A stretch of DNA of 64,000 nt from an uncultured beta proteobacterium (GTDB taxonomy: Bacteria; Pseudomonadota; Gammaproteobacteria; Burkholderiales; Burkholderiaceae_C). How positions within the stretch are numbered: position 1 is the first letter of the stretch; the number at the start of each line of letters is the position of its first letter. Made by a program: the position numbers and the translations under genes. Where the stretch lies: NCBI GenBank assembly GCA_903938815.1, contig CAJAES010000080.1, positions 1 through 64,000 of the forward strand. The letters are read 5' to 3'. The notes below the pieces were generated by a model, which searched no databases, had not been told where the DNA came from, and saw only the letters and a list, made by a program, of their open reading frames with translations. Shown here piece by piece: positions 29,021-51,028 of this stretch.

Positions 29021-30301
29021 TCAAAGATCCACCACAGCCGGATCCAGCTGCGGCACGCCAAGCGCCGCCTCGCAGGCGCGCTTGACGTGATCAGGCTGGC
29101 CCGCATGAAACACGAACTGCTGCAGCAGCAGCTGCCATTTCGGATGTCTCAGATACTGCTCGCGCGGCAGACCGTCGCGGAAGAAGTCGCGGTGGTCGCT
29201 GGGCAGCGGCACCGCATGGTTGGCGGCAGGCTCGCGCATCACGCCCTTGGGGTCGCGGCCGGCAGCCACGGCTTCGATGTCGTTGGCGTACTGGCGGCGG
29301 ATCATCGCGATGCCGCGGTCGCTGGCGCCCAGCGTCTCGCGCGTGCGGTCGGCAATGGCGCCCTGCCCTACCCAGGCCACGATGTCCTGGTTGATCACGT
29401 GGCTCGTGATCCAGCGGCCGTCAGGGCGGCGGGTCGGCGCCGTCCACGAAGGAATCTCCGTCTGCACGAAGGGCTCGGATTCGTTCGGCACCCGGATGTA
29501 GGACCACAGCACCGACAGCGTGGTGGTGTCGTCCACCGGCACGCGCCACTCGAAATGGTCGCCCAGGAAGAAACCGTGCGGCCACAGGCAGACGCGGCCG
29601 ACAGTCCACAGCGGGTTGTTCGCGTCGGTGTCCTCGCTGATGCGCTTGTAGATGAAGCCGTGCTCGAACTCCTCGAACGCCAGCTGCAGGTGCTTCGGCG
29701 CGGGCGGGCCGTCGCGGCCCGCGAGGCGGCGGCCCCAGTTGGCGTGCATCCATTCGAAATGCACCGGGTCGATGGAGTTTTCCTGCGCCTGCAGCCAGTT
29801 GCAGGGTACCTCGGCGAACACGATCTGCACGAAGCCGTTCGGCCAGTGGAAAGGCTCCCAATCCGGCAGTTCCGGGGCCGGCAGCGGGCCCACGTAGGCC
29901 CAGAGCACCCCGGCCAGTGCGCGCACCCGGCCGGCCTTCAGGCTGGCCTTGGCGCGCAGCCGGCGGGCCGGGTCCACCGTGTCTTCATAGGGCTGCGCGA
30001 TGCACCGGCCATCGGGCGCGAACTGCCAGCCGTGGTAGTGGCAGCGGATGCCCTGATCTTCGACATAACCGTGGGCCAGGTCGGCCCGGCGATGCGCGCA
30101 CTGGCGCTCCACCAGGCCGTAGGCGCCAGACCTGTCGCGAAACAGGACCCAGTCCTCGCCCAGCAGGCGCACGGGCTGGATGGGCTCACGCGCCAGCGCA
30201 TCGACGGCCGCCACCGGGTGCCAGTGACGCCGCATCACCTCGCCCATCGGCGTGCCCGGGCCGACCTCGGTCAGCTGGCGGTTCTTGTCGGCGCTCAGCA
30301 T
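29021..30301 (-). CDS. Rieske non-haem iron oxygenase, alpha subunit (phthalate-dioxygenase/vanillate-demethylase type)
   Basis: 426 residues. The Rieske [2Fe-2S] ligands are in CAHRRADLAHG (Cys68, His70) and CHYHGW (Cys87, His90). The catalytic domain has the mononuclear iron site in QENSIDPVHFEWMH. The N-terminus (VGPGTPMGEVMRRHWHPVA) is typical of the OphA2-like class, single-component oxygenases that hydroxylate or O-demethylate substituted benzoates. Electrons would come from the PDR reductase at 27527-28498. It is the last gene of the run starting at gntR and follows the Bug gene by 14 bases. Demethylation versus ring dihydroxylation cannot be decided from sequence. Confidence 0.9.
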   Translation of the reverse strand: MLSADKNRQLTEVGPGTPMGEVMRRHWHPVAAVDALAREPIQPVRLLGEDWVLFRDRSGAYGLVERQCAHRRADLAHGYVEDQGIRCHYHGWQFAPDGRCIAQPYEDTVDPARRLRAKASLKAGRVRALAGVLWAYVGPLPAPELPDWEPFHWPNGFVQIVFAEVPCNWLQAQENSIDPVHFEWMHANWGRRLAGRDGPPAPKHLQLAFEEFEHGFIYKRISEDTDANNPLWTVGRVCLWPHGFFLGDHFEWRVPVDDTTTLSVLWSYIRVPNESEPFVQTEIPSWTAPTRRPDGRWITSHVINQDIVAWVGQGAIADRTRETLGASDRGIAMIRRQYANDIEAVAAGRDPKGVMREPAANHAVPLPSDHRDFFRDGLPREQYLRHPKWQLLLQQFVFHAGQPDHVKRACEAALGVPQLDPAVVDL

Positions 30302-30315
30302 CGGGCCCCCGCGGT

Positions 30316-31293
30316 TCAGTCGGGCTTGAAGCCGGAGGCCTTGATGATGGGCTCCCAGTGGGCCAGTTCATCGCGCTGCAGCGCAGCCATCGCGCGGCCG
30401 TCGCGGAAGTGCGGGTGAACCTGCAGCTTCTGGCTCAGCGTCTGCTGCACGTCGGGCATGGCCAGGATCTTCTGCACCGCGCGCTGGATGCGCTCCAGCT
30501 CCGCTGCCGGCGTGCCGGCGCGCGCCCACATGCCGGTCCAGCCGTCGCCGCCGGTGACGTTCACGCCCTGTTCCGCGAAGGTAGGGATGTCCGGCATCAG
30601 CGGCGAGCGCTCCTTCGTGAACACGCCGATGACGCGGATCTTGCCGGCCTTGTGGTGCGCCATCATGCCGTCCATCAGGCTGATGGCCGCGGGCACGTGG
30701 CCGCCCAGCAGGTCGGTCACCATCGGGGGCGAGCCCTTGTACGGTGTCACGGGCAGGTCGATGCCGGCGGCCTTGCCGAAGGCCACGCCCAGGAAGTGGT
30801 TCTGCCCGCCCAGTCCCGGCGTGCCGAAGCTGGCCTTGCCGGGGTTGGCCTTCACCCAGGCCACGAATTCGCGCACGTTGGTGGCACCTGTATTCAACGC
30901 CACGCCCATGCCCAGCGGGTAGGACGCCAGCGTGGCGACGGGTGCGAAGTCCCGCTCGATGTTCCACTTCACCTGATGCCCGAAGACCAGCATCTGGAAG
31001 GTGGGCGTCGCGTTGGGCGCCACCATCAGCGTCAGACCATCGGCCGGAGCCTGCAGCACGGTGTCCGCGGCAATGCGACCGCCGGCGCCAGGCTTGTTCT
31101 CGACGATCACCGGCTGGCCCAGCTCCGCCGGCAGGCGGTCGACCACGGTGCGGGCGATGGCATCCGTGGCGCCGCCCGGCGGGAAGCCGATCAGCACGCG
31201 GATGGGCGGCTTGTCGCCCTGCGCACGCAGCGCGGCGGGCAAGGCCAGCGCAGCGCCGGCCAGCATCAGGGAACGGCGTGTCGTGTTCATCAT
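30316..31293 (-). CDS. Bug/TctC-type periplasmic solute-binding protein
   Basis: 325 residues with a Tat/Sec-like signal (TTRRSLMLAGAALALPAALR, ending RAQG) and the family start PIRVLIGFPPGGATDAIART. It closely resembles the Bug protein at 39477-40457: both have the unusual APNAT segment, LASYP/LNSYP-MxM, and a C-terminal LAHWEPIIKASGFKP or its near twin. They are probably paralogues serving one catabolic system. The ATG at 31293 overlaps the stop of the upstream Rieske gene; a second ATG follows directly. It likely captures the aromatic or chain-bearing acid consumed here. Confidence 0.92.
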   Translation of the reverse strand: MMNTTRRSLMLAGAALALPAALRAQGDKPPIRVLIGFPPGGATDAIARTVVDRLPAELGQPVIVENKPGAGGRIAADTVLQAPADGLTLMVAPNATPTFQMLVFGHQVKWNIERDFAPVATLASYPLGMGVALNTGATNVREFVAWVKANPGKASFGTPGLGGQNHFLGVAFGKAAGIDLPVTPYKGSPPMVTDLLGGHVPAAISLMDGMMAHHKAGKIRVIGVFTKERSPLMPDIPTFAEQGVNVTGGDGWTGMWARAGTPAAELERIQRAVQKILAMPDVQQTLSQKLQVHPHFRDGRAMAALQRDELAHWEPIIKASGFKPD

Positions 31294-32528
31294 GCAGTCT
31301 CCGTGAGCACGCGCCAGTCGGTGCCGGCGGGCAGCACGCCCCCGATCGACTGGATGCGGCGGTAATCGAGGTCCGGGTGGGCGGCCATCGTCGGCGTCTG
31401 GCCGGCCATGAATTCACGCACCGACTTCAGCAGCGCCTGGCGTACGCGCAGCACGGCGCCGTCGGCAGAGCACAGCTGCTCGGTGGTGCGGTCGGCGATG
31501 GGCCCCTGGCTGAGGAACATCGCGAAGTCCTCGGTGCCCAGGTGCTGCGGGAAGCCCGTGGCGTGGCCGCGCTTCATCAGGTCGCGGTTCTGGCCCCAGT
31601 TGTCGTCCGGCCCGCCGGGCGGCAGCGGCGGGAAGTTCCACACGTCGGGCGAGGCCGACATGATGGTCATGCCCAGCGGCGCCGTGGCGTTGAAGTGCAC
31701 GAACCACGCGCGGTGCGTCACGTCGTCGACCGGCGTGCTGAAGAACACGGTGCTCGGGCCGCCCGGGTGCGGCGCGCAGATGATGCCGAACCAGGGCATG
31801 ACGAAGTTGTTCACGCGGGCGTAGAACCTGTCGTCGGGCAGCGGGCGCAGCGCGGCGTAGCGATAGCCGTAGGGGCGGTCCTCGAACTCGAGCTTGGGGG
31901 CCAGCGCCTTGGTCATGATCAGCCGCTCGTTGCCGCCGCCGGCCGTCATCTGCGTCGTGGACTCGTGCAGCACGCCCACGTGCGAGGAATCCATCGACGC
32001 CTCGACGCCCTGCACCCAGTTCGTGGGCACCTGCGTGCTGGTGACGGAGCGGTGGGTGGGCGGCAGGTCCACGAACGGCAGGTCGGGGAACTTCGGCGCG
32101 GTCTCGCCCTGGCCCAGCCAGGCCCAGACGATGCCGCCGCGGTCCGCCGCCTGGTAGCGGTTGACCTTCACGTGCCGGCAGAACTGCGCCTGGTCGCCCG
32201 TGTGGTTGGGCGCCTCGATCACCTCGCCCGCAGGGTTGAACTTCCAGCCGTGATAGATGCAGCGCAGGCCGCCTTCCTCGTTGCGCGCCAGGGCCAGCGA
32301 TGCCTTGCGGTGCGCGCAGCGCTCGTCGACGATGCCCACGCTGCCGTCCGGCGAGCGGAAGGCCACGAGGTCGAGGCCCAGCAGGCGCACGCGGAACGGC
32401 CGCCCCCCGGCCTCGAGCTTGCTGGACGGGATGGCGGGCAGCCAGTAGTGCTGCCGGATCATCTCGCCCATCGGCGCGCCGTTCTCGACGCGGGTCAGCA
32501 GGTCGTTGTCTTCGCGTGATAAGGGCAT
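31290..32528 (-). CDS. Rieske non-haem iron oxygenase, alpha subunit (second copy)
   Basis: 412 residues. Rieske ligands are in ERCAHRKASLAL (Cys71, His73) and CIYHGW (Cys90, His93); the mononuclear iron site is in EASMDSSHVGVLHES. It belongs to the same OphA2-like class as the gene at 29021 but the two are diverged throughout, so they are not a recent duplication and should act on different intermediates. One base separates it from the LigJ-like gene upstream, and it overlaps the Bug gene downstream. No reductase lies adjacent; the PDR protein at 27527-28498 is the only candidate in the window. Confidence 0.9.
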   Translation of the reverse strand: MPLSREDNDLLTRVENGAPMGEMIRQHYWLPAIPSSKLEAGGRPFRVRLLGLDLVAFRSPDGSVGIVDERCAHRKASLALARNEEGGLRCIYHGWKFNPAGEVIEAPNHTGDQAQFCRHVKVNRYQAADRGGIVWAWLGQGETAPKFPDLPFVDLPPTHRSVTSTQVPTNWVQGVEASMDSSHVGVLHESTTQMTAGGGNERLIMTKALAPKLEFEDRPYGYRYAALRPLPDDRFYARVNNFVMPWFGIICAPHPGGPSTVFFSTPVDDVTHRAWFVHFNATAPLGMTIMSASPDVWNFPPLPPGGPDDNWGQNRDLMKRGHATGFPQHLGTEDFAMFLSQGPIADRTTEQLCSADGAVLRVRQALLKSVREFMAGQTPTMAAHPDLDYRRIQSIGGVLPAGTDWRVLTETA

Positions 32529-32529
32529 G

Positions 32530-33525
32530 TCAGTCTTTCCGGAAGGCTCGGGTGTAGAGGCGCCGGCAGTTGCACTCGAAGATGTCGGTGCGGTCCTGCG
32601 CCGTCAGCCAGGAGATGTTCTCGATCACGGGCTTCATGTCGTCGTAGTCGCGCCCGCTGATGGGGTCGCGCGCGCTGCCGGTGCCGGGCTTCTCGGTGCC
32701 GAACAGCACGTTGGGCACGCCGGCCACCTTCAGCAGCAGCTCGATCGAATCCTGGCTGTAGTTGCAGGTGTCGAAGTACAGCTTCTTCAGCTGCTCGTCG
32801 AAAGTCACCTTGTCGCCGCGGCGCACGCTCCAGCTGCGGAAGCGGCCCATCTGGTAGGGGATCGCGCCGCCGCCGTGCGCCACCACGATCTTCAGGTCCG
32901 GGAACTTCTCGAAGGCATCCGAGCCCAGCAGCGAGACGACGGCGATGCTTTCCTCGTTGATGAACTTCAGCGTGTAGCTCTCGCGCGCGCTGCAACTGCC
33001 GGCGGAGTGGATGAGCGCCGGCACGTCCAGGCGGGTCATGGCCTCGTAGAGCGGGTGCCAGAACGGGTCGCCCAGGCCCGGGGGCGGGAGGTCCGAGCCC
33101 TCGGTGGGGTCCGGGTTGATCAGGCAGCCGACGAAGCCGAGCTGGTTCACGCAGCGCTCGAGTTCGGCCACGCAGCGTTCGGCGGGCGACTCGTGCATGA
33201 ACTGTGGGAGGCCGGCCACGCCACGGAAGCGGTCGGGGAACATCGCCACCACGCGGGCGATGATGTCGTTGCAGTGGCGCGTCCACAGCTCGGTCACGCG
33301 CACGGGCTTGACCGAGTGCATCTGCAGGTAGGGCCGCGGCGAGATGAACTGCAGGTCGGTGCCGACGCTGTCCATGATGCCGACGATCTCTTCCGCCACC
33401 TTGCGGACCGCCTCGTCCGCGATCTTGGGCGGCACGGCGGGGTTGCCCCGGCCGCCGATCAGTTCCGCCATGAACCGGAAGCTCTGCGGCGGCATGACGA
33501 CGTGGGCGTGGGAATCGATGATCAA
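32530..33525 (-). CDS. ACMSD-type amidohydrolase, 4-oxalomesaconate hydratase (LigJ)-like
   Basis: 331 residues of the ACMSD/LigJ amidohydrolase group. Metal and active-site segments: MIIDSHAHVV (His6, His8), ALIHSAGSCSAR, VAHGGGAIPYQMGRFR, the Asp of FDTCNYSQDSIEL, and LFGTEKPGTG. FPDRFRGVAGLPQ and GCLINPDPTEG, then GDPFWHPLYEAM, match LigJ closely. LigJ hydrates 4-oxalomesaconate to 4-carboxy-4-hydroxy-2-oxoadipate (CHA) in protocatechuate 4,5-cleavage. That product is the substrate of RraA-fold CHA aldolases, three of which are encoded at 44317-46320. A decarboxylase role (OMPDC/LigW-like) is the alternative within this superfamily. Confidence 0.82.
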   Translation of the reverse strand: MIIDSHAHVVMPPQSFRFMAELIGGRGNPAVPPKIADEAVRKVAEEIVGIMDSVGTDLQFISPRPYLQMHSVKPVRVTELWTRHCNDIIARVVAMFPDRFRGVAGLPQFMHESPAERCVAELERCVNQLGFVGCLINPDPTEGSDLPPPGLGDPFWHPLYEAMTRLDVPALIHSAGSCSARESYTLKFINEESIAVVSLLGSDAFEKFPDLKIVVAHGGGAIPYQMGRFRSWSVRRGDKVTFDEQLKKLYFDTCNYSQDSIELLLKVAGVPNVLFGTEKPGTGSARDPISGRDYDDMKPVIENISWLTAQDRTDIFECNCRRLYTRAFRKD

Positions 33526-33586
33526 GGGAAACCTTTCAGGAGAGTCGGGTGCGGCGATTGCGGCGATTGATGCGGATCCGGAGGGT

Positions 33587-34000
33587 TCAGCGCTCGGCCA
33601 CCACGGCCATCAGCTCGAGCTGAAGCGCCATGCCATGGGCGAGCGGGTGCACGCTGATGTGGCGCGCGGGGCGGTCGGCGGGGTCCGGAAAGCACGCGAG
33701 CCAGTGGGTGTTGATGACGTCGCGCAGGCTGTCGTCGGCCAGCGTGATGCCGACGCGCACCACGTCCTGCAGGCTGGCGCCGCCTGCGGCCAGCAGCGCG
33801 CGCATGTGCGTGAAGACATGCGCCACCTGCGTGGCGCCGTCGGCGGGCAGGGAGCCGTCCGCCGGGTCCTTGCCGATGAGGCTGGAGGTGCACAGGATGT
33901 TGCCCACGCGCGAGCCCAGCGGAATCGGCGCCTTGTGGCCGACCTTGGGCAGGTCGATGGAGCGCGGGCGGCGCGGCGCGGGTCCCGGTGCCTGGCTCAT
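33587..34000 (-). CDS. RidA/YjgF-family protein
   Basis: 137 residues of the Rid fold: the YjgF-like GSRVGNILCTSSLIGKDPAD, VFTHMRALLAAGGASLQDVV, then RVGITLADDS and a C-terminal strand ALQLELMAVV. The usual substrate arginine may be the one in PARHISVHPL. Rid proteins hydrolyse reactive enamines or, in catabolic clusters, act on other imine/ketone intermediates. The gene overlaps gntR by 4 bases. No nitrogen-containing step is evident in this pathway, so its role here is unclear. Confidence 0.85.
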   Translation of the reverse strand: MSQAPGPAPRRPRSIDLPKVGHKAPIPLGSRVGNILCTSSLIGKDPADGSLPADGATQVAHVFTHMRALLAAGGASLQDVVRVGITLADDSLRDVINTHWLACFPDPADRPARHISVHPLAHGMALQLELMAVVAER

Positions 34001-34731
34001 GCCGAATCTCCGTTGTCGGCTTCGAAGAAGCTCATCGGCACCTTGGCCAGGAACTCCGAGAAGCCGGTGGTGCCGGCCGGCACGTGCTGCAGCATGGCCA
34101 GCGCGGCCTGCGTCTCGTCGCCCGACTGGATGGCACGCGCCACCTTCAGGTGTTCCTGCAGCGACTGGTTGATCAGCGTCTTGTTCTGGAAGTCCTTCAG
34201 GCGGTAGCGCTGGATCATCCGGCGCGCCTGGCGGATCTGCTCGGCGATGTAGGGGTTGCGGCTGCCCGCGTAGATGGCCTCGTGGAACAGCGAGTTGGCC
34301 AGCGTGTACTCGGCCACGCCGCCGTTGACGGCCGCCTCCTGGCAGCGCGCCAGAGTCTCGTCGAGCCGGCGGGCCAGATCGTCGTCCACGCGGCGGGCGG
34401 CCAGCTTGGCGGCCAGCGATTCGAGCTCGGCGATGAACTCCAGCATCGCGCGCACCTTGCCTATGGACAGCCGCGCGACCGTCACGCCCTGGCGCGGCGC
34501 CACACGCACCAGGTCACGGGCGGCGAGCTGCTGAAGCGCCTCGCGCACCGGCGTGCGGCTGACCTCGAAGCGGGCCGCCAGGGCCCGCTCGTCCAGCGTC
34601 GCGCCGGGCGGCAGCTTGCCGGATTCGATCTCGTCCTGCAGCGCGTTGCGGATGTCGGCCGCCCGGCCGCCCCGCGGACGGATCTCGTCGGCGCTCAGTT
34701 CGTCGTCGGGGTTCAGGGAGTCGGTGGACAT
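33997..34731 (-). CDS. GntR-family regulator, FCD (FadR-type) subfamily
   Basis: 244 residues from the ATG at 34731 (MSTDSLNPDDELSADEI). The winged helix-turn-helix spans about 23-90: IRNALQDEIESGKLPPGATL, then LAARFEVSRTPVREALQQLA. The all-helical FCD effector domain follows, with likely metal/ligand residues at EAIYAGSRNPY and QEHLKVARAI. It is divergent from the 15-gene plus-strand operon and is the first gene of the minus-strand Rieske/LigJ operon, so it is the natural repressor of both. The candidate operator is at 34968-34981. Confidence 0.9.
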   Translation of the reverse strand: MSTDSLNPDDELSADEIRPRGGRAADIRNALQDEIESGKLPPGATLDERALAARFEVSRTPVREALQQLAARDLVRVAPRQGVTVARLSIGKVRAMLEFIAELESLAAKLAARRVDDDLARRLDETLARCQEAAVNGGVAEYTLANSLFHEAIYAGSRNPYIAEQIRQARRMIQRYRLKDFQNKTLINQSLQEHLKVARAIQSGDETQAALAMLQHVPAGTTGFSEFLAKVPMSFFEADNGDSA

Positions 34732-34967: not shown

Positions 34968-34981
34968 TCTGGTATGCCAGA
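34968..34981. promoter_or_regulatory. Probable GntR (FCD) operator overlapping the catabolic promoter
   Basis: TCTGGTATGCCAGA is a perfect TCTGG-N4-CCAGA dyad, the shape expected for a FadR-type dimer. A -35-like TTGGCA at 34947-34952 is 17 bases before TGGTAT at 34970-34975, so the operator would cover the -10. Related half-sites TGGCATACAT (34781-34790) and TTGGCATATT lie elsewhere in the 258-base divergent gap, on the gntR side and in the middle. Confidence 0.55.
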
Positions 34982-34989: not shown

Positions 34990-37128
34990 ATGTCCATGGT
35001 CACCGCTTTCCCCCCCGAGGCCCGCCCGCTCCGCGCCCTGCTGCAGCCTCGCTCCGTCGCCCTGGTGGGCGCTTCGGCCGATGCGCGCTCCTTCGGCGGC
35101 TTCGTGCTCGGCAACCTGCTGCGATTCGGCTACGGCGGCTCGCTGCATCTCGTCAGCCGCAGCAGCGCCGAGATCCAGGGCCAGCCCTGCGTCAAGACCG
35201 TCGAGGAATTGCCCGAGGGCCTGGACCTCGCCGTGCTGGCCATTCCCGAAGCCGGCGTAGCCGATGCGCTGAAGACGCTCGCCGCACGCGGCTGCCGCAG
35301 CGCGGTGCTGTTCGCCTCCGGCTACGCCGAGGCCGGCGAGGACGGCCGCGTCAAGCAGGAGGCCCTGGCAGCGCTGGCACGCGACACCGGCATGCTGCTG
35401 CTGGGCCCGAACTGCATGGGTTTCACGAACTACGCAGGTGCGGTGCCGCTCACCTTCGAGCCGCTGCAGCGCATCGCCACCGACGGCCAGCCCGGCATCG
35501 GCGTGCTGGCCCAGAGCGGCGCGATGGCTGCCAACCTGCGTGACGCCTTCCTGGGCCGCGGCCTGGTGGTGCCCTGCGTGTGCTCCACCGGCAACGAAGC
35601 CTCGGTGACGGTGGAAGACGTGCTGGCCCACTACATCGCCGACCCGCAGATCAGCGTGATCGCGCTGTACGCGGAGCAGATCCGCCGCCCCGCGCTCTTC
35701 CTGCGGCTAGCCGCGCAGGCGCGCGTGGCCGCCAAGCCCGTGGTGCTGCTGATGCCCGGCCGCAGCGCACGCGCCCGGGAGGCAGCGGCGTCGCACACCG
35801 GCGCGCTGGCAGGCGACCACGCCACGGCGTCCGCGCTGCTGCGGCGCGAGGCCGTGGTGGTGGTCGACACCATCGACGAGCTCTACGACACCGCCGCCGT
35901 GCTGCTGCGCCACCCCGCGCCCCCGGCCGGCGGCACCGCGTTCGTCACCGGCTCGGGTGCGATGAAGAACCTGGCGCTGGACTTCGCCGACGACATCGGC
36001 CTGCCGCTGCCCGCACTGGCCGACGCCACGGTTCAGGCGCTGCGGGCGATGCTGCCCGACTACGCCGTCGCCGAGAACCCGCTGGACTACACCACCATCG
36101 GCGTGCGCCAGCCCGGCCTGATCGGCGAGCTGATCCACACCCTGCTGGCCGACCCCGCCATCGGCAGTGGCGTGCTCGCCATTCCCGTCGGCCCGGAAGT
36201 GGCCCAGCGCGACAAGGCCGAGCACATCGTGCCCGCGCTGGCACGCGCGGCCAAGCCTGCGGTGCTTGTCCTGACCGGCGACACCGGCGCCATCGAACCC
36301 TTCTTCGTCGAAGCCATCCGCGCCAGCGGCGTGCCGTTCTTCCGCTCCGCCGACCGCGCGCTGCGAGCGCTGCGGCGTGTTGCGCAATACGGAGAATCGC
36401 TGCAGCGCGCCGCACGCGCCGACGCTACCCGCACACCCGCGCTGCCGCTGCCCGGCGACGTGCCCAGCAACGGCCTGTACGCCGAGTACCAGGGCAAGGC
36501 CTGGCTGCAGGCGGCGGGCATCGCGGTACCAAGGGGCGCGCTGGCACGCCATCTGGCCGATGCCGAACGCATCGCTGCCGAGATCGGCTACCCGGTCGTC
36601 ATCAAGGCGCAGGCCAGCGCGCTGCCACACAAGAGCGATGTCGGCGGCGTGGTCGTGGGCCTGGCCGATGCCGCCGCGCTGCGCGCCGGCTGGGAGCGCC
36701 TGCAGGCCAGCGTACGCACCCATCGGCCCGACCTGGTGCTGGACGGCGTGCTGGTGGAGGGCATGGGCCCGCGCGGCGTGGAACTGGTGGTCGGCGCACG
36801 CCGCGACGCCGACTGGGGCCCGGTGGTGCTGGTGGGCCTGGGCGGCATCTGGATCGAGGCGCTGAAGGACGTGCGCCTGCTGCCCGCCGACCTGGCCGAA
36901 GCCGACATCGTGCAGGAACTCGAGCGCCTGAAGGCCGCCCCGGTGCTGCACGGCCTGCGCGGCCAACCCGGCGTGGACCTGGCGGCCGTGGCCCGCGTGG
37001 TGGCGGCCATCGGCGCGCAGATGCGCGCCAACCCGGACATCGCCGAGATCGACATCAACCCGCTGGTGGCCTACCCCGACCGCGTGCTCGCGCTCGACGC
37101 GCTGCTGTGCATGAAGGTGGCGTCATGA
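34990..37128 (+). CDS. ADP-forming acyl-CoA ligase (acetate-CoA ligase family, single chain)
   Basis: 712 residues with the fused order of NDP-forming acyl-CoA synthetases: a CoA-binding domain (VALVGASADARSFGGFVLGN at about 18), succinyl-CoA-synthetase-like domains with VLAQSGAMAANLRDAF, the phospho-histidine loop AASHTGALAGDHATAS (His269), and a C-terminal ATP-grasp domain (GIAVPRGALA, GYPVVIKAQASALPHKSD, AEIDINPLVAY). It would make the CoA thioester of the incoming acid while forming ADP. First gene of the operon; a second ATG six bases in is possible. Its last bases overlap the first acyl-CoA dehydrogenase (ATGA). Confidence 0.9.
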   Translation: MSMVTAFPPEARPLRALLQPRSVALVGASADARSFGGFVLGNLLRFGYGGSLHLVSRSSAEIQGQPCVKTVEELPEGLDLAVLAIPEAGVADALKTLAARGCRSAVLFASGYAEAGEDGRVKQEALAALARDTGMLLLGPNCMGFTNYAGAVPLTFEPLQRIATDGQPGIGVLAQSGAMAANLRDAFLGRGLVVPCVCSTGNEASVTVEDVLAHYIADPQISVIALYAEQIRRPALFLRLAAQARVAAKPVVLLMPGRSARAREAAASHTGALAGDHATASALLRREAVVVVDTIDELYDTAAVLLRHPAPPAGGTAFVTGSGAMKNLALDFADDIGLPLPALADATVQALRAMLPDYAVAENPLDYTTIGVRQPGLIGELIHTLLADPAIGSGVLAIPVGPEVAQRDKAEHIVPALARAAKPAVLVLTGDTGAIEPFFVEAIRASGVPFFRSADRALRALRRVAQYGESLQRAARADATRTPALPLPGDVPSNGLYAEYQGKAWLQAAGIAVPRGALARHLADAERIAAEIGYPVVIKAQASALPHKSDVGGVVVGLADAAALRAGWERLQASVRTHRPDLVLDGVLVEGMGPRGVELVVGARRDADWGPVVLVGLGGIWIEALKDVRLLPADLAEADIVQELERLKAAPVLHGLRGQPGVDLAAVARVVAAIGAQMRANPDIAEIDINPLVAYPDRVLALDALLCMKVAS

Positions 37129-44316: not shown

Positions 44317-44973
44317 ATGACCGACCCGAACGTCCAACGCCTCAAGCGCCTGGATGCCTGCGCCGTCTCCGACGCCCTCGACAAGCTGGGCCTGAAGGGC
44401 GCCGTCACCGGACTGCCGCAGCGCAGCGGCGAAGGCCGCATCGCCGGCATCGCGGTGACGATGAAGGTCGGCCCCGGCCAGCCGCCCGCCGGCCCGCCCA
44501 AGCACCTCGGCTGCACCGCGATCGAGCATGCCGGCCCCGACCACGTCATCGTCGTGGAACAGCGCAGCGGCGTCGAAGCCGGGTGCTGGGGCGGCCTGCT
44601 GACGCTGGGCGCGCAGGTCAAGGGCGTGGCGGGCGTGGTGGCCGACGGGCCCCTGCGCGACGTGGACGAAGCCATCGCCTACGGCTTCCCTGTCTTCTCG
44701 CGCAGCCTCACCTCCTTCACCGCACGCGGCCGCGTGGTGGAACTCGGCACGCAGGTCCCGGTGAGCATCGGCGACGTGACGGTGAACCCCGGCGACTACG
44801 TGCTGGCCGACCGCAGCGCCGTCATCCTGATCGCCGCCGCCGATATCGAACGCGTGCTCGACGCTGCCGAAGCCATCGTCGCCCGCGAGGCCGCCATGGC
44901 CAAGGCCATCCTGGCCGGCACCCCCATCGGGCAGGTGATGGGCGGCGCCTACGAACACATGCTGGAGAACTGA
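44317..44973 (+). CDS. RraA/HMG-CHA aldolase family protein, copy 1 (acidic active-site residue replaced)
   Basis: 218 residues of the fold shared by RraA and class II pyruvate aldolases (LigK/GalC type). The metal/pyruvate motif VADGPLRD is present (Arg114, Asp115). Twenty-one residues before the Arg, where active aldolases have Asp or Glu (after Trp-Gly), it has Gly93 (CWGGLLTL). That may abolish pyruvate aldolase activity or mark a different reaction. GGRP-like loops near VTMKVGPGQPPAGPP are also unusual. AAGGAA upstream serves as ribosome-binding site; 4 bases separate it from copy 2. Confidence 0.85.
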   Translation: MTDPNVQRLKRLDACAVSDALDKLGLKGAVTGLPQRSGEGRIAGIAVTMKVGPGQPPAGPPKHLGCTAIEHAGPDHVIVVEQRSGVEAGCWGGLLTLGAQVKGVAGVVADGPLRDVDEAIAYGFPVFSRSLTSFTARGRVVELGTQVPVSIGDVTVNPGDYVLADRSAVILIAAADIERVLDAAEAIVAREAAMAKAILAGTPIGQVMGGAYEHMLEN

Positions 44974-44977: not shown

Positions 44978-45661
44978 ATGGCCCCGAACCCTCAAGAAGA
45001 CAACCACGACGACGCCAACGTCGCCCGCGCCGCGAAGCTCGACACCGCCACGCTCAGCGACGCGCTCGACAAGCTCGGCATCGCCGGGCAATGCCACCTC
45101 ATCCAGCCCCGCTCGGGCGGATTCCGCATGGCAGGCCGCGCCTGGACGCTGCTCTACGGCCCCGCAGGCAAGCCTGCCGGCACCGTGGGCGACTACATCG
45201 ATGACGTGCCGCCCGGCAGCGTCATCGTGCTGGACAACGGCGGGCGCGAGAACTGCACCGTCTGGGGCGACATCCTGACCGAGATCGCGCACCGGCGCGG
45301 CATCGCCGGCACCGTCATCGACGGCATCTGCCGCGATGTGGCGCTGTGCCTGCAGCTCGGCTACCCCGTCTTCAGCAAGGCCCACTGGATGCGCACCGGC
45401 AAGGACCGCGTGCAGGTCGAGGCCACCGGCATCCCCGTGAACATCGGCGATGCGCGCGTGGCGCCGGGTGACATCGTGCGCGGCGACGCCGACGGCGTGA
45501 TCGTGATCCCGAAGGAACACGAGGCCGCCGTGCTCGACGCCGCCGAGGCGATCGAAGCCGCCGAGGACCGCATCCGCCAGGCCGTGCGCGGCGGCATGCG
45601 TCTCGACGATGCCCGCCGGCAGTTCAAGTACCACCAGCTGCAGACCCGGGAGCAGGCATGA
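44978..45661 (+). CDS. RraA/HMG-CHA aldolase family protein, copy 2
   Basis: 227 residues. It keeps the complete signature: Trp-Gly-Asp (Asp98 in TVWGDILTEI), then VIDGICRD (Arg119, Asp120) at the same 21-residue spacing. With a divalent metal it could cleave 4-carboxy-4-hydroxy-2-oxoadipate to pyruvate and oxaloacetate, the step after a LigJ-type hydratase. The stop overlaps copy 3 by 4 bases. Confidence 0.87.
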   Translation: MAPNPQEDNHDDANVARAAKLDTATLSDALDKLGIAGQCHLIQPRSGGFRMAGRAWTLLYGPAGKPAGTVGDYIDDVPPGSVIVLDNGGRENCTVWGDILTEIAHRRGIAGTVIDGICRDVALCLQLGYPVFSKAHWMRTGKDRVQVEATGIPVNIGDARVAPGDIVRGDADGVIVIPKEHEAAVLDAAEAIEAAEDRIRQAVRGGMRLDDARRQFKYHQLQTREQA

Positions 45662-46320
45662 AACGATTCGACTGGGAGGCCACCACGCGCCGCAACCCCG
45701 AACGCGTGGCCGACACCCTGGCCCAGGCCGCGCGCGCGCTGCCCACCGCCACGCTGCACGAGGCCGGCGGCAAGATCGGCGCGCTGCCTTCAGCCATCAA
45801 GCCCGTGGCGGCCGGCATGGCCTTCGCAGGCAGCGCACTGACGGTGCACTCGCCCCCGGGGGACAACCTCTGGCTGCACCGCGCGCTCGACATCTCGCGC
45901 CCCGGCGACGTGCTGGTGGTCCACGTGAACGGCGCCTACGAACACGGCTACTGGGGCGAGATCATGGCCACGATGGCCATCGCCCGCGACCTCGCGGGGC
46001 TGGTGATCGACGGCTGCGTGCGCGACGGCGCGCTGCTGGCCGAGTTCGGCTTCCCGGTGTTCGCCCGAGGCCTGTGCATCCGGGGCACCGGCAAGGACTT
46101 CGGCGCCACCGGCTGGATCAACCATCCGGTGCGCATCGGCGATGTCACCGTGAACGCGGGCGACCTGGTGGTGGGCGACGGCGACGGCGTGGTCGTGGTG
46201 CCGCGCGAGCGCGCAACGGACGTGGTGGCGCGGTCGGTGAAGCGCGAGGCCGACGAAGCCGCCATCCTGCAGCAACTCAAGGACGGGGCCTCGACCCTGG
46301 ATGTCTATGGCTGGCGCTGA
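45658..46320 (+). CDS. RraA/HMG-CHA aldolase family protein, copy 3
   Basis: 220 residues. Signature Trp-Gly-Glu (Glu101 in YWGEIMATMA), then VIDGCVRD (Arg122, Asp123). The rest is as close to general RraA-fold proteins as to copy 2, so the three are old paralogues rather than fresh duplicates. The last 20 bases overlap the crotonase gene. Confidence 0.87.
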   Translation: MKRFDWEATTRRNPERVADTLAQAARALPTATLHEAGGKIGALPSAIKPVAAGMAFAGSALTVHSPPGDNLWLHRALDISRPGDVLVVHVNGAYEHGYWGEIMATMAIARDLAGLVIDGCVRDGALLAEFGFPVFARGLCIRGTGKDFGATGWINHPVRIGDVTVNAGDLVVGDGDGVVVVPRERATDVVARSVKREADEAAILQQLKDGASTLDVYGWR

Positions 46321-47092
46321 AGCCCGGAACGAGGGCCTCGCGCCCGATCTGGTGATCGATGGGGCCGTGGCCACCATCACGCTGCGGCGCCCCGCCGTGG
46401 CCAACCGGCTGGAACTGAGCGATCTCGAAGTCCTGCATGGTTTCCTCGCCGACGTGAACGCGCGGCCCGAGGTCCTGCTGCTGCGCCTGCAGGGCGAAGG
46501 CCGGCACTTCTGCAGCGGGTTCAACATCGGGCAGGTGGGCACCGCCGGCGCCGACGCCGGCCGCAGATTCGAGGGCATCACCGACGCCGTCGAGCAGGCG
46601 CGGCCCATCACCGTGGCGGTGCTGCAGGGCGGCGCCTTCGGCGGCGCGGGCGACCTCGCGGTGGCCTGCGATTTCCGCATCGGCGGGCCCGACAGCGAAC
46701 TGATGGTGCCGGCCGCCCGGCTGGGCCTGCACTTCTATCGCGGCGGGCTGGAACGCTTCGTCGCGGCCGTGGGCCTGCCAGCAGCGCGGCGCATCATGCT
46801 TGCGGCGGAGCGGCTGGATGCGACCGAGATGCGCCGCCTCGGCCTGCTCGACCGCGTGGCCGACAGCACCGCCGGCGTGCCGGCCCTGGTGGACGCCTTC
46901 TGCGCGGAGATCGCGGGCCTGGCCCCGCTGGCGATCCTGGGCATGAAGCAGCACCTGAACCGCATCGCGCGGGGCACGCTGGACGCCGCCGCGCTGGCGC
47001 GCGACATCGCTGCCGCCGACGCCTCTGCCGACCTCAAGGAAGGCGCCGCCGCCTGGCAGCAGCGCCGGCCGCCGCAATTCCAGGGGCGTTGA
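46301..47092 (+). CDS. Enoyl-CoA hydratase/isomerase (crotonase) family protein, atypical active site
   Basis: 263 residues, starting inside the RraA copy 3 gene. The fold is clear (VATITLRRPAVANRLELSDL, RHFCSGFNIGQVG, LQGGAFGGAGDLAVACDFRI), but neither of the two Glu residues of true hydratases is at the usual place: the oxyanion helix has GGAGDLA and the second site reads PAARLGLHFYRGGLERF. So it is more likely a crotonase lyase, hydrolase or isomerase than a standard hydratase. It overlaps the GMC oxidoreductase start by 1 base. Confidence 0.85.
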   Translation: MSMAGAEARNEGLAPDLVIDGAVATITLRRPAVANRLELSDLEVLHGFLADVNARPEVLLLRLQGEGRHFCSGFNIGQVGTAGADAGRRFEGITDAVEQARPITVAVLQGGAFGGAGDLAVACDFRIGGPDSELMVPAARLGLHFYRGGLERFVAAVGLPAARRIMLAAERLDATEMRRLGLLDRVADSTAGVPALVDAFCAEIAGLAPLAILGMKQHLNRIARGTLDAAALARDIAAADASADLKEGAAAWQQRRPPQFQGR

Positions 47093-48708
47093 TGGCCCAC
47101 TGGGACCAGGAAGTCGACTTCATCGTCGTCGGCGCCGGCACGGCCGGCTGCGTGCTGGCCAACCGCCTGAGCGCCGACCCCGGCTGCCAGGTGATGCTGC
47201 TCGAAGCCGGCGGTGGCGACAGCCACCCGGCCGTGCGCATGCCCGTGGGCTTCATGCGCGCGCTGCAGCGGCCCGACCTCACCTGGGGCTTGCAGACCGA
47301 GCCGGAGCCGCACCTGCAAGGCCGTGTGCTGCCCGTGCCGCGCGGGCGCCTGCTGGGCGGCTCGTCGTCGATCAACGGCATGTTCCACATCCGGGGCGAC
47401 CGGCGCGATTTCGACGACTGGGCGGCAGCCGGCTGCACCGGATGGTCCTACGACGACGTGCTCCCGTACTTCGTGAAGAGCGAATCGAACTGGCGCGGCG
47501 CCGGCCCGTTCCACGGCGGCGCCGGGCCGCTGCAGGTGAACCCCATCGACACGCGCCACCTGCTGGCCGAGCCGCTGCGCGAGGCCGCGCGCGAGGCAGG
47601 CCACCGGCTCAACGACGACTACGACGGCGAGCACCACGACGGCATCGCGCGCGGCGACGTCGCCATCGACCGCAACGGGCGGCGCCACAGCAGTTCGCGC
47701 GCCTACCTGCACCCGGTGCTGTCGCGGCCCAACCTGCAGCTGTGGACGCGTGCGCTGAGTGAGCGCGTGCTGATCGAGGACGGCCGCGCCGTGGGCGTGC
47801 AGTTGCGCCGCGGCGGCCGGGTGCTGCGCGTGCGCGCGCGGCGTGAGGTGCTGCTGAGCGGGGGCGCCTACGGCAGCCCGCAACTGCTGATGCTGTCGGG
47901 CGTGGGCCCGGCAGACGAGCTGCAGCGCCTGGGCATCCCTGTGCAGCGCGCACTCGCGGGCGTGGGCGGCAACCTGATCGAGCACCCGCGCATGCCGCTG
48001 CAGTTCCGCGCGCTGCAGCCGCTGACCTTCCTGCGCCAGCTGCGATTCGACCGGGCCGTGCTCTCGGTGCTGCGCTGGGCCTTCACCGGCGGCGGCCCCT
48101 TCGCCACGCAGATCTGCAACGGCACGTTGCTGCTCAAGAGCGACCCCGCGCTCGACCGGCCCGACATCCAGCTGCTGTGCAACCCGGTGCGCCTGGACGC
48201 GCGGCTGTGGTTCCCGGTGCTGCGGCCAGCGCAGGAGCACAGCTTCTACATCACGGTGTGCCAGCTCTATGCGAAGAGCCGTGGCCGCGTGACGCTGCGC
48301 TCGGCCGACCCCGCGGACAAGCCCCGCATCGCGATGAACCTGTTCTCGCACGAGGACGACTTCCGCAGCATGCGCGAGGGCCTGCGCGCCGCGCGGCGGC
48401 TGTACGCGCAGCCGGCGCTGGCTTCGCTGGTGGGCGCCGAGACCCTGCCCGGCGCCGCGCTGCAAAGCGACGCCGAGCTGGACGAGGCGATCCGCGCGCT
48501 CGGCGGCATCACGCACCACCCGGTGGGCACCTGCGCGATGGGCGTGGGCGCCGACGCCGTGGTGGACCCGCGCCTGCGCGTGCACGGCGTGCCCGGCCTG
48601 CGCGTGGTGGACGCCTCTGTGATGCCCGGGATCGTCGGCGGCAACACCAACGCGGCCACGCTGATGATTGCCGAGAAGGCCGCGGACATGATCCTCGCCG
48701 ATGCCTGA
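47092..48708 (+). CDS. GMC-family FAD-dependent oxidoreductase (choline/alcohol-dehydrogenase-like)
   Basis: 538 residues from the ATG at 47092, overlapping the crotonase stop. FAD-binding motif FIVVGAGTAGCVLANRLSAD; GMC signature 1 region PRGRLLGGSSSINGMFHIRG; signature 2 region GAYGSPQLLMLSGVGP; catalytic His segment near GGITHHPVGTCAMG, and the C-terminal MPGIVGGNTNAATLMIAEKA. It oxidises a primary alcohol to an aldehyde with electrons to the membrane or oxygen. Followed by an aldehyde dehydrogenase, it forms an alcohol-to-acid pair within the operon. Confidence 0.92.
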   Translation: MAHWDQEVDFIVVGAGTAGCVLANRLSADPGCQVMLLEAGGGDSHPAVRMPVGFMRALQRPDLTWGLQTEPEPHLQGRVLPVPRGRLLGGSSSINGMFHIRGDRRDFDDWAAAGCTGWSYDDVLPYFVKSESNWRGAGPFHGGAGPLQVNPIDTRHLLAEPLREAAREAGHRLNDDYDGEHHDGIARGDVAIDRNGRRHSSSRAYLHPVLSRPNLQLWTRALSERVLIEDGRAVGVQLRRGGRVLRVRARREVLLSGGAYGSPQLLMLSGVGPADELQRLGIPVQRALAGVGGNLIEHPRMPLQFRALQPLTFLRQLRFDRAVLSVLRWAFTGGGPFATQICNGTLLLKSDPALDRPDIQLLCNPVRLDARLWFPVLRPAQEHSFYITVCQLYAKSRGRVTLRSADPADKPRIAMNLFSHEDDFRSMREGLRAARRLYAQPALASLVGAETLPGAALQSDAELDEAIRALGGITHHPVGTCAMGVGADAVVDPRLRVHGVPGLRVVDASVMPGIVGGNTNAATLMIAEKAADMILADA

Positions 48709-48744
48709 CCCGCGCCGGATGAACGCACTGAACCGGAGACCCCG

Positions 48745-50238
48745 ATGACCCGCCCCGCCCTGCCTGGACAGCCCGGCCAGCCCGGCCAGCCCCTGAGGCT
48801 GCTGATCGACGGCGCATGGCAGGCCGCCGCCAGCGGCGCGCTGCTGGACGTGACCGACCCCTGCACCGGCGACGTCATCGCGCAGGCGGCCGCCGGCGAT
48901 GCGGCCGACATCGATGCCGCGGTCGACGCCGCGCGCCGCGCCTTCGAGCGCGGCCCCTGGCCCGCGATGAAACCGGCGCAGCGCGCGCGGCTGCTGTGGC
49001 GCCTGGCCGAACTGATCGACCAGCACGCCGACGAGCTGGCCGCGCTGGAAACGCTGAACACCGGCAAGCCGCTGAAGATGGCGCGCATGTTCGACGTGGC
49101 GCTGTCCGCCGAGTGCCTGCGCTACCACGCAGGCTGGTGCACCAAGCTCAGCGGCGAGACGCGCGCCACCTCGCTGCCGGGGGAATGGCACACCTACACA
49201 CTGCGCGAGCCGCTGGGCGTGGCCGGGCTCATCGTGCCCTGGAACGTACCGCTGCCGATGGCGGTGGGCAAGATCGCGCCCGCGCTGGCCGCCGGCTGCA
49301 CGGCCGTGCTCAAGCCCGCCGAGCTGACGCCGCTGACGGCCGTGCGGCTGGGCGAGCTCATCGTCGAGGCCGGCTTCCCGCCGGGCGTCGTGAACATCGT
49401 CACCGGACTCGGCACCACCGCAGGCCAGGCGCTGGTGGACCACCCCGGCGTCGACAAGCTGTCCTTCACCGGCAGCACCGCGGTGGGCCAGCGCATCCTG
49501 GCTTCGGCGGCGGGCAACCTGAAACGCCTGTCGCTGGAGCTCGGCGGCAAGAGCCCGGTCTTCATCTTCCCCGATGCCGACCTCGAGCGCGCCACCGACG
49601 CCGCTGCGCGCGGCATCTTCGCCAACGCCGGGCAGGTGTGTGCGGCGGGCTCGCGCCTGTTCGTGCACGAATCCGTCTTCGAGCGCGTGGTGCAGGGTGT
49701 GGCGGACCGCGCCCGCCGGCTGCGCGTGGCGCCGGGGCATCTGCCGGAATCGGAGATGGGCCCGCTGATCAGCCAGCGCCAGCGCGAGCGCGTGCTCGCC
49801 TACGTGGCCGGCGGCATCGCCGAGGGTGCCGATGTGCTGACCGGCGGTGCCGCACTGCCCGGCGCCGGCTACTTCATGCAGCCCACCGTGATGGCGCGCA
49901 CACGCGCGGACATGGCCCTGGTGCGCGAGGAGATCTTCGGCCCGGTGCTGTCCACCTTCGCCTTCGGCGACGAGGAGGAACTCGACACGCTCGCCGCACG
50001 CGGCAACGACACCGCCTACGGCCTGTCGGCCAGCGTCTGGACGCGCGACCTCTCGCGCGCGCACCGCATGGCGCGCAGGCTGAAAGCGGGCAACATCCGC
50101 GTGAACGCAGCCGTGGCGCCGGATTTCGCGATGCCCTTCGGCGGCATGAAGCTCTCGGGCTGGGGCCGCGAGAACGGCCGCGAGGGCGTGGAAAGCTTCA
50201 CCGAGCTGAAGTCGGTGGCCATCGATCTGAACCCCTGA
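48745..50238 (+). CDS. Aldehyde dehydrogenase
   Basis: 497 residues. An odd N-terminal Gly-Gln-Pro repeat (PGQPGQPGQP, residues 6-15) precedes a normal ALDH: GLIVPWNVPLPMAVGKIAPA, KPAELTPLTAVRLGEL, GSTAVGQRILASAAG, the base in LELGGKSPVF, the nucleophile in NAGQVCAAGSRLFVHE, and EEIFGPVLSTFAF. It resembles betaine/phenylacetaldehyde-type enzymes. It may oxidise the aldehyde made by the GMC enzyme or the aldehyde released by retro-aldol cleavage. Confidence 0.9.
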   Translation: MTRPALPGQPGQPGQPLRLLIDGAWQAAASGALLDVTDPCTGDVIAQAAAGDAADIDAAVDAARRAFERGPWPAMKPAQRARLLWRLAELIDQHADELAALETLNTGKPLKMARMFDVALSAECLRYHAGWCTKLSGETRATSLPGEWHTYTLREPLGVAGLIVPWNVPLPMAVGKIAPALAAGCTAVLKPAELTPLTAVRLGELIVEAGFPPGVVNIVTGLGTTAGQALVDHPGVDKLSFTGSTAVGQRILASAAGNLKRLSLELGGKSPVFIFPDADLERATDAAARGIFANAGQVCAAGSRLFVHESVFERVVQGVADRARRLRVAPGHLPESEMGPLISQRQRERVLAYVAGGIAEGADVLTGGAALPGAGYFMQPTVMARTRADMALVREEIFGPVLSTFAFGDEEELDTLAARGNDTAYGLSASVWTRDLSRAHRMARRLKAGNIRVNAAVAPDFAMPFGGMKLSGWGRENGREGVESFTELKSVAIDLNP

Positions 50239-50248
50239 AGGAGTCCCC

Positions 50249-51028
50249 ATGGACCTGGGCATCCGCGGCCGAAAGGCCCTTGTCTGCGCGTCGTCGCAGG
50301 GGCTGGGCCTGGCCTGCGCGCAGGCGCTGGCGGCCGAAGGCTGCGAGGTCTGGCTCAACGGCCGGGACCGCACGAAGCTGGAGGCCGCTGCCGCTGCATT
50401 GCGCGCCGCCAGCGGCGCGACCGTTCACACGGTCGCCGCCGACCTCGACACCGAAGCCGGCCGCGCAGCGCTGGTGGCTGCCTGCCCCGAACCGGACATC
50501 CTGGTGAACAACAACGCCGGCCCGCCGCCGGGCCAGCTGGCCGACTGGGACCACGCCGCGTGGATGCGCGCGCTGGAGAGCAACCTCATCGCCGGCGTGA
50601 TGCTGATCCGCGCGGTGCTGCCGGGCATGCGCGAGCGCGGTTTCGGGCGCATCGTCAACATCACCTCGGCGATGGTGAAGACGCCGCACGCGGCCATGGG
50701 CCTTTCCACCGCAGCGCGCGCCGGGCTCACGGCCGTGAGCAAGGCGCTCGCACGCGAGGCGGTGGTGGACAACGTCACCATCAACCAGCTGCTGCCCGAG
50801 CGCTTCGACACCCCGCGCCAGGAGTTCATGGCGCGCCGCCTGATGGCCGAGCACGGCATCACGCACGAAGCGGCCCGCCAGCGCATCGCCGACACCCTGC
50901 CGGCGCGGCGCTTCGGCCGGCCGGAGGAATTCGGCGCCGCCTGCGCCTTCCTGTGCGCCGCGAACTCCGGCTTCATGACCGGGCAGAACCTGCAGCTCGA
51001 CGGCGGGGCCTACGCCGGGCTGGTGTGA
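50249..51028 (+). CDS. SDR-family protein with altered catalytic Tyr/Lys
   Basis: 259 residues, last gene of the long operon. The Rossmann N-terminus is KALVCASSQGLGLACAQALA (TG replaced by CA in the Gly motif), with NNAGPPPGQ. Where SDRs have YxxxK, the sequence reads MGLSTAARAGLTAVSKA, so the catalytic Tyr is Ser and the Lys is Arg by my alignment. A branch of SDRs with LSxxARxGL is common in proteobacteria and is usually annotated 3-oxoacyl-ACP reductase-like without proof. Its reaction is unknown. Confidence 0.85.
   Translation: MDLGIRGRKALVCASSQGLGLACAQALAAEGCEVWLNGRDRTKLEAAAAALRAASGATVHTVAADLDTEAGRAALVAACPEPDILVNNNAGPPPGQLADWDHAAWMRALESNLIAGVMLIRAVLPGMRERGFGRIVNITSAMVKTPHAAMGLSTAARAGLTAVSKALAREAVVDNVTINQLLPERFDTPRQEFMARRLMAEHGITHEAARQRIADTLPARRFGRPEEFGAACAFLCAANSGFMTGQNLQLDGGAYAGLV

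Follow-up and report, generated by a model that had tools for sequence, protein, structure and literature searches.

We analyzed a 64,000-nucleotide stretch of contig CAJAES010000080.1 from an uncultured beta proteobacterium (hereafter the window), in which about 18 genes lie in two divergent arms under a single repressor of the GntR family. Gene families were assigned to the window's proteins by Pfam and NCBIfam scans, and these agree with the families named in an earlier note on this DNA: two Rieske oxygenases, an amidohydrolase, RidA, a Bug solute receptor and GntR on the left, and an ADP-forming acyl-CoA ligase, two acyl-CoA dehydrogenases (ACADs), a thiolase-like protein, DUF35, a CaiB transferase, LigB, three RraA proteins, a crotonase, a GMC oxidoreductase, an aldehyde dehydrogenase (ALDH) and a short-chain dehydrogenase/reductase (SDR) on the right. 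The conserved unit spans approximately positions 25343 to 47092.

We scanned 84,980 species-representative genomes with the window's LigB protein. The scan, which picks up close relatives only, returned 34 loci from Burkholderiales or uncultured betaproteobacteria. Carriers among them include Polaromonas sp. C04 and Variovorax sp. YR216. Right-arm counts below refer to the 27 loci that extend 10 kb ahead of LigB and 4 kb or more beyond it (the seven others are too short), and left-arm counts to 14 loci from 13 genomes (L074 and L089 belong to one genome). The order ligase-ACAD1-ACAD2-thiolase-like-DUF35-CaiB-LigB is collinear in 26/27 loci from several genera; the sole non-collinear locus (L015) is cut at its edge, and another locus of the same genome (L088) has the ligase and gntR genes adjacent. 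On the left, the amidohydrolase and Rieske oxygenase A are each found in 14/14 loci, and a Rieske A match is present in all 25 genomes searched (best identity 74-82%). RidA is found in 10/14 loci, the four misses being stretches that end before its gene. The gene set is one conserved unit, more than chance would give; a block not kept together in relatives, which the earlier note had named as refuting its idea, is not what the loci show. The unit is rare: LigB is detected at E ≤ 1e-40 in 6 of 399 genomes of the order, among which the source genome and G294 (78% identity) have the neighboring genes, one matches at 54% and three at 33-39%. Parts of the unit appear to be present in more than one copy in two genomes, namely two Rieske A genes (78% and 76%) on contigs C1 and C14 of a Comamonadaceae metagenome-assembled genome (MAG; G401), and three RraA2 genes (75-79%) on contigs C173, C174 and C91 of G403. 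On a short Limnohabitans MAG contig (L019, 1-2292), LigB directly follows DUF35, as a variant or through an assembly fault.

The gntR gene (33997-34731, reverse strand; PF00392 and PF07729; 26/27 right-arm loci) encodes a GntR/FCD repressor that may instead start at an upstream GTG (34848). Conserved between the arms is the palindrome CTGGTATGCCAG (34969-34980, no strand assigned), nine bases upstream of the ligase start. It occurs exactly in 12 of the 27 regions between gntR and the ligase gene, the window's among them, and with up to two mismatches in 22, compared with 0.55/27 for base shuffles; five regions contain no match at this threshold. Similarly, TGGTATNCCA is present in 14/27 intergenic regions, with 15 occurrences over 528,570 bases of 26 loci. 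Within the window, the core TGGTATGCCA occurs once against 0.01 expected, whereas the 12-mer at two mismatches is unspecific there (9 matches against 4.05 expected, with 3 of 100 shuffles reaching 9). CTGGTATGCCAG is specific only as an exact match, and we propose it as a putative GntR operator.

The extent that the earlier note gave to the gene set stands for the core and changes at both ends. The left operon continues beyond 29021 with three reverse-strand genes that the note had missed: a ferredoxin/flavin reductase (27527-28498; Fer2 and NAD_binding_1 domains; 13/14 left-arm loci), which is likely the electron donor for the Rieske oxygenases, a crotonase (echL, 26722-27513; PF00378; 14/14) and a 3-hydroxyacyl-CoA dehydrogenase (25343-26719; PF02737/PF00725; 14/14). 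Also missed was a second Bug/TctC receptor between ACAD2 and the thiolase-like gene (39477-40457, forward strand; PF03401; 15/27 loci). The forward-strand genes at the right end prove to be accessory: a GMC oxidoreductase (47092-48708; PF00732/PF05199; 5/27 loci), an ALDH (48745-50238; PF00171; 4/27) and an SDR (50249-51028; PF13561; 5/27 right-arm loci, with an SDR match in 6/14 left-arm loci). Three of the 27 right-arm loci end approximately 4 kb past LigB, so some of these misses may be cuts. The left flank (15422-25361) holds further catabolic genes. Beside Liv-type ABC transporter genes (the binding protein by Pfam, the others by eye) there are two ALDHs and an SDR, together with the gene of an AraC regulator that runs into the end of the 3-hydroxyacyl-CoA dehydrogenase gene. 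The right flank (51066-57241) holds a sigma-54 activator with a GAF domain, a GSDH-type protein, a cytochrome c and a TonB-dependent receptor.

Predicted ring-fission enzymes and their recurrence on plasmids

Rieske oxygenases A (31290-32528) and B (29021-30301) are both encoded on the reverse strand, on either side of a Bug/TctC periplasmic solute receptor (30316-31293, reverse strand; PF03401; 10/14 left-arm loci). Both carry PF00355 and score above cut-off for PF19301 (LigXa_C), a likeness to LigXa at the level of the domain; the nearest solved chain to these proteins is a phthalate 4,5-dioxygenase. Rieske A adjoins the amidohydrolase in 14/14 left-arm loci. Rieske B is present in 9/14 and is 58% identical to a Rieske protein adjoining a LigY-like gene in L078.

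The amidohydrolase-superfamily protein (32530-33525, reverse strand) reads from a TTG start at 33525, which restores its HxH metal motif. The earlier note had taken it for a LigJ-like hydratase, an assignment that we revise: among solved structures LigY ranks best (280 bits, 43.5% identity), ahead of LigJ (235 bits, 39.5%), and in a tree LigJ, the L075 protein and a second protein of the source genome form a 100/100 clade that leaves the window hydrolase outside. (One row of this tree, L070, was wrongly extracted and has a very long, meaningless branch.) The hydrolase is nearest LigY among its solved kin but of a separate group. The second protein of the source genome (61.6% identical to LigJ) is the product of a separate gene on contig C39, which lies with an RraA3-like gene (37%) and a LigB-family gene. 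A compact related locus (L075, 5082-13837) comprises Bug, Rieske A, reductase, LigB, RidA, a LigJ-type hydratase and an SDR that shares 57% identity with its counterpart in the window. Since RidA (33587-34000, reverse strand; PF01042; adjoining gntR in relatives whose stretch is long enough), an amidohydrolase and LigB occur together, we also considered aminophenol and 3-hydroxyanthranilate routes; these were set aside, as the hydrolase scores at most 80 bits against ACMSD structures and 267 bits against LigY in the same search.

The LigB-superfamily extradiol dioxygenase (43269-44270, forward strand; PF02900; 27/27 loci by selection) was modeled with AlphaFold2 (pLDDT 87.8, pTM 0.91). The model matches DesB, LigB and MhpB in Foldseek with TM-scores of 0.63-0.66 and an rmsd of approximately 6-7 Å, and DesB and LigB rank at the top (0.64-0.65). 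Residues equivalent to LigB His195 and Glu242 fall within a significant sequence alignment. An SSH motif, part of a GSSHS stretch conserved across the family, aligns at position 12 with LigB, whose first metal-ligand histidine is His12, and with DesB, in stretches of only -2.5 and 1.7 bits. At the position expected for the second metal-ligand histidine, which we take to be His61 of LigB, the sequence GDDQ is found in 40/40 rows of at least 50% identity, some of them sharing a genome, and it aligns to PDH of MhpB at only -2.1 bits. More distant members have NDQ in place of GDDQ, and L079 has KDQ. The LigB protein of L095, which adjoins a hydrolase 70% identical to LigY, is 36% identical to the window's LigB and carries GNDQ. 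The source genome (G000) has six LigB-family genes, on contigs C39, C120, C7, C108, C31 and C80, and the one on C31, a 38% paralogue of the window's LigB, has ABC transporter genes and FAH-like genes nearby (both recognized by eye).

Downstream of LigB on the forward strand lie RraA1 (44317-44973; PF03737), RraA2 (44978-45661; PF03737) and RraA3 (45658-46320), each present in 26/27 loci. RraA3 scores 187 bits against a cut-off of 179 for NF006731, the model for aldolases of 4-carboxy-4-hydroxy-2-oxoadipate (CHA) and 4-hydroxy-4-methyl-2-oxoglutarate (HMG). An Arg-Asp pair is kept in 17/17 RraA-type rows, so it does not separate RraA1 and RraA2 from the aldolase.

Among 14 plasmid regions inspected, relatives of RraA1 and of RraA2 (the latter 52-67% identical) occur in five (L093, L094, L095, L128 and L129). 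In each of these settings, which come from Alphaproteobacteria and Rhodococcus, the RraA1/RraA2 pair adjoins a hydrolase of the LigY-like kind. Four of these annotated plasmids also have LigB. The Bradyrhizobium plasmid (L093) carries the module with RidA and P450s and without RraA3; the Rhodococcus koreensis plasmid (L094) has it with RidA, RraA3 and a CoA synthetase; in the Polymorphobacter plasmid (L095) the hydrolase 70% identical to LigY lies directly with LigB, RraA1, RraA2 and RraA3 (HMG aldolase); and in the Aminobacter plasmid (L129) a hydrolase 54% identical to LigY occurs with RraA3. The fifth, pNL1 of Novosphingobium (L128), has the hydrolase, RidA, RraA1 and RraA2, with no LigB in the stretch. 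Overall, LigB-type dioxygenase, hydrolase and RraA proteins make up a ring-fission module that is found again on plasmids from other bacteria, where different entry enzymes accompany it. Regions L096, L131 and L132 contain no such module. Five further RraA2 places (L110-L114, from a phylum-wide search with RraA2 in 6/398 genomes) were left out of the module count, as tblastn found no LigB in their 20-kb stretches; one of them (L112, 8979-10944) has an RraA1-RraA2-RraA3 trio without LigB, beside an aminotransferase-like open reading frame (ORF; by eye), and may act on related 2-oxo acids.

In the catabolism of 5,5'-dehydrodivanillate (DDVA) by strain SYK-6, LigXa demethylates the substrate, LigZ opens the ring and LigY hydrolyzes the product, according to the portion available of PMC6874591. 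The part available of a 2025 account lists alkene hydration in SYK-6 as 'not identified', with HMG aldolase next (PMC12673573). Because RraA1 and RraA2 recur beside LigY-like hydrolases and the SYK-6 hydration enzyme is so listed, we infer that these two proteins are candidates for that step, as may be RidA.

Acyl-CoA genes of the steroid side-chain type

The right arm begins with the ADP-forming acyl-CoA ligase (34990-37128; PF13549, PF13607 and PF13380; 26/27 loci), followed by ACAD1 (37125-38315) and its probable partner ACAD2 (38326-39480), both assigned by Pfam and present in 27/27 loci; all genes of this section are on the forward strand. For both ACADs the nearest NCBIfam models are pimC/pimD, far under cut-off. 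ACAD1 has 4x28 and Tcur3483 as its nearest solved chains; we take 4x28 to be the ChsE4-ChsE5 complex and both entries to come from steroid ACAD heteromers. ACAD2 is nearest ordinary ACADs, with Tcur3481 lower in the list. After the thiolase-like gene (40457-41677; 27/27 loci) come a DUF35/ChsH2-type partner (41677-42054; 27/27) with a zinc-ribbon and OB-fold (PF12172 and PF01796, matched in the overlapping ORF 40693-42054; C4 zinc ribbon C-x2-C-x10-C-x2-C) and a family III CoA-transferase of the CaiB type (42060-43250; PF02515; 27/27). A crotonase (46307-47092; PF00378; 27/27, 37-68% identity) follows the RraA genes.

The thiolase-superfamily protein is probably a retro-aldolase, as judged from its motif and structural kin. 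It scores 690 bits against a cut-off of 462 for PRK08142, and its PDB ranking places 4u4e (named only Thiolase) first at 275 bits, followed by Sal (189), Ltp2 (168), an acetyl-CoA acetyltransferase (141) and BbsB (131). Sal and Ltp2 thus score above true thiolases, and together with the kinship of ACAD1 this bears out the earlier note's view that steroid-type side-chain genes are here joined to ring-fission genes. The note's reading that the protein lacks the second thiolase cysteine also holds: there is no Cys in its C-terminal GIGG stretch and no canonical thiolase cysteine pair. Near the first-Cys position there is a single Cys, Cys80, which is replaced by Ser in 2/33 thiolase-like rows (L040 and L010) and by Leu, Thr or Val in the relatives L123, L126 and L127. 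The sequence YDSF, in contrast, does not vary in 33/33 rows, nor in five relatives found in other settings. According to the available part of PMC12329534, the residues used are Tyr302 and Cys304 of YDCY in Sal, and in Ltp2 a second Tyr besides that of YDHF. The window protein has the Tyr base of the steroid aldolases in a YDxF/Y motif; the second catalytic group of Sal and Ltp2 (Cys, or His plus a second Tyr) is absent, with Ser in the motif in 33/33 rows, and a His aligns at the position of Sal Gln352 (counted by hand).

In L123, an annotated acetyl-CoA acetyltransferase gene lies three genes upstream of the thiolase-like gene in the same run, which hints that the thiolase-like protein performs a different reaction. 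The thiolase-like/DUF35 pair of L123, L124 and L126 is accompanied by CoA ligases, crotonases, SDRs or an ACAD pair, with no annotated ring-fission genes in these stretches.

Compared with steroid side-chain removal (ACAD heteromers, Sal/Shy, Ltp2/ChsH2), the window shares the ACAD pair, the thiolase-like protein with DUF35 and the position of the catalytic-base Tyr, but has YDSF rather than YDHF or YDCY and crotonases rather than a MaoC hydratase, and no steroid-ring genes were recognized among its scanned genes. The bbs route, with benzoylsuccinyl-CoA thiolase, presumably combines CaiB, ACAD, crotonase, dehydrogenase and thiolase plus DUF35 as the window does; it differs in that BbsB scores under Sal and Ltp2 against the window protein and that the window has ring oxygenases.

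A tentative ring-first route and its rivals

From the observed gene content, conservation of the unit, palindrome, affinity to LigY, aldolase-type residues and recurrence of the module we infer the chemistry. The reading we lean toward, with confidence slightly short of even, is GntR-controlled catabolism of a carboxylated aromatic that bears a carbon side chain beside a catechol or guaiacol site, with ring fission first; our guess for the substrate is carboxylated 5-substituted guaiacyl compounds. Uptake would be assisted by the Bug proteins, and Rieske oxygenases A and B with their reductase would produce a catechol by demethylation or hydroxylation of the ring. LigB would then open the ring beside the substituent, as LigZ does, and the LigY-like C-C hydrolase would cleave the fission product, yielding a carboxy-hydroxypentadienoate along with the side chain as an acid (R-COOH). 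RraA1 and RraA2, perhaps with RidA, may convert this dienoate to HMG, which RraA3 would cleave to two pyruvates. R-COOH could become R-CoA through the ADP-forming ligase or the CaiB transferase, undergo oxidation by the ACAD pair, the two crotonases and the 3-hydroxyacyl-CoA dehydrogenase, and finally be cut by the thiolase-like/DUF35 pair in a retro-aldol cleavage.

The ring part of this scheme shares with the SYK-6 DDVA pathway a LigXa_C-type Rieske protein, a LigB-superfamily dioxygenase, a LigY-like C-C hydrolase and an RraA-fold aldolase. It differs in that the hydrolase is only 43.5% identical to LigY, that the acyl-CoA side-chain genes are extra and that no LigW-type decarboxylase is found among the scanned window genes. 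Moreover, SYK-6 has the MarR-type regulator DdvR, DdvK and the TonB-dependent DdvT (available part of PMC6874591), and the window has GntR and Bug. A partial parallel is a Rhodococcus sp. ZPP plasmid (L130, 5055-13466) with Rieske, CHA aldolase, LigB-like, two short ACAD genes and a crotonase, plus an AMP-binding protein nearby; here a FAH-family hydrolase replaces the amidohydrolase, and identity to the window is 42% (Rieske) and 31% (LigB).

Several observations weigh against the ring-first reading. The window hydrolase is not a LigY orthologue, its 43.5% identity comparing with 70% (L095) and 67% (L078) for LigY relatives, and 7/12 inner branches of the hydrolase tree are open, leaving its place among the non-LigJ rows unsettled. 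In L075, the hydratase that accompanies a 60% relative of Rieske A is truly of the LigJ type, and the RraA genes give way to an HpaI-like aldolase (by eye). The window's LigB has no recognizable second metal-ligand His motif, the alignment there being weak (-2.1 bits). Not all ring modules elsewhere come with acyl-CoA genes, and the thiolase-like family is common without ring genes, with 127 plasmid records at E ≤ 1e-60, five of which are the contexts L123-L127. Finally, RraA genes are missing locally from L040 and from the too-short locus L011, and the too-short L019 has neither CaiB nor RraA genes beside LigB; the L040 and L011 genomes have an RraA2 relative on another contig (56% and 55%, in a search with RraA2 alone).

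The ligase introduces the strongest rival, as it is 48% identical to one beside a p-hydroxycinnamoyl-CoA hydratase/lyase in L095, which fits removal of the side chain first. The ligase would then activate an arylpropanoid or aryl-alkanoate, the ACADs, crotonase and thiolase-like/DUF35 aldolase would shorten it to an aromatic acid, and the ring would be demethylated by Rieske, opened by LigB and finished by the hydrolase and RraA proteins. We regard this order as possible, with a probability appreciably below even, and rate in the same way, as credible though not probable, its variants with a thiolytic step after the 3-hydroxyacyl-CoA dehydrogenase and with CaiB recycling CoA. The aldolase-like YDSF protein suits it, as do the loci with an ALDH and the ring-type loci L075 and L078, for which tblastn gave no match to the ligase, ACAD, thiolase-like, DUF35 or CaiB genes of the window, a gap that a lower pathway would be expected to show. 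Against it stand the likeness of the hydrolase to LigY rather than LigJ, the presence of the ALDH in only 4/27 loci and the separate LigB-family/LigJ-clade/RraA3-like locus of the source genome for ordinary aromatic acids. Ring fission first is at least as likely as side-chain removal first because LigY-like hydrolases free the ring substituent as a carboxylic acid. The earlier note had envisaged release of the side chain as an aldehyde plus acyl-CoA and opening of the ring thereafter. Its retro-aldol element is retained in the aldolase-like protein; the absence of a conserved ALDH from the unit weakens aldehyde release, unless a ketone is formed, and the LigY-like hydrolase speaks against the proposed sequence of events.

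A gallate-like lower pathway is improbable in our judgment. Here the Rieske proteins would be O-demethylases making trihydroxybenzoate from a syringyl-type acid, LigB would open the ring, RidA tautomerize, the amidohydrolase hydrate and RraA3 cleave CHA. With protocatechuate 4,5-cleavage and gallate catabolism (LigAB/DesB, LigJ, LigK) the window shares the LigB fold and an RraA3 above the CHA aldolase cut-off; the lack of a conserved aldehyde-oxidizing step and the pairing in L075 of related Rieske A and LigB proteins with a LigJ-type protein would also fit. However, the hydrolase falls outside the LigJ clade, LigB belongs to a separate GDDQ subfamily, no LigA domain match was found among the scanned window genes, there are three RraA proteins, the genome has five further LigB-family genes and Rieske B is not universal (9/14). 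The earlier note's attribution of these genes to protocatechuate/gallate cleavage is not supported: the tree rejects it for the hydrolase, the genome has the separate LigJ-clade locus on C39, and LigB carries GDDQ.

Two independent ring and acyl-CoA pathways that merely share a locus and repressor seem very improbable: although, by the annotation of the stretches fetched, the ring module stands alone in L093, L128 and L129 and the acyl-CoA module in L123, L124 and L126, the ligase-to-LigB order is kept in 26/27 loci of several genera, with RraA1-3 in 26 and the crotonase in 27, and a single palindrome is conserved between the arms. Cleavage of the flavonoid A-ring (fde/ifc) was rejected, as Pfam found neither a glyoxalase-type protein nor a flavin monooxygenase in the core; the available part of PMC11069340 describes the ring-cleaving IfcB/FdeC as glyoxalase-type and a flavin monooxygenase as required for the initial step.

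On the ring-first reading a more specific set of claims could be made jointly: that RraA1 and RraA2 supply the hydration/tautomerization step of SYK-6 DDVA catabolism, that the GDDQ LigB subfamily acts as an extradiol dioxygenase whose metal site is altered, and that a new ring-first route runs from LigY-type release of an aliphatic or arylalkyl acid to a steroid-type acyl-CoA retro-aldol step. We consider it rather unlikely that all of these hold together.

Novelty and meaning

We found no description of this cluster in the open-license literature searched, and the portion available of a lignin-dimer review (PMC12997858) contains neither 'Burkholderia' nor 'thiolase'. What is new, as far as that literature goes, is the conserved combination; the enzyme families themselves are known. 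Here two separately known modules make up one unit with one repressor and a candidate operator, and concrete candidates (RraA1, RraA2 and RidA) are named for a lignin-breakdown step without an identified enzyme. If the proposal is true, an undescribed route would be added to the few pathways known for substituted lignin-type aromatic acids.

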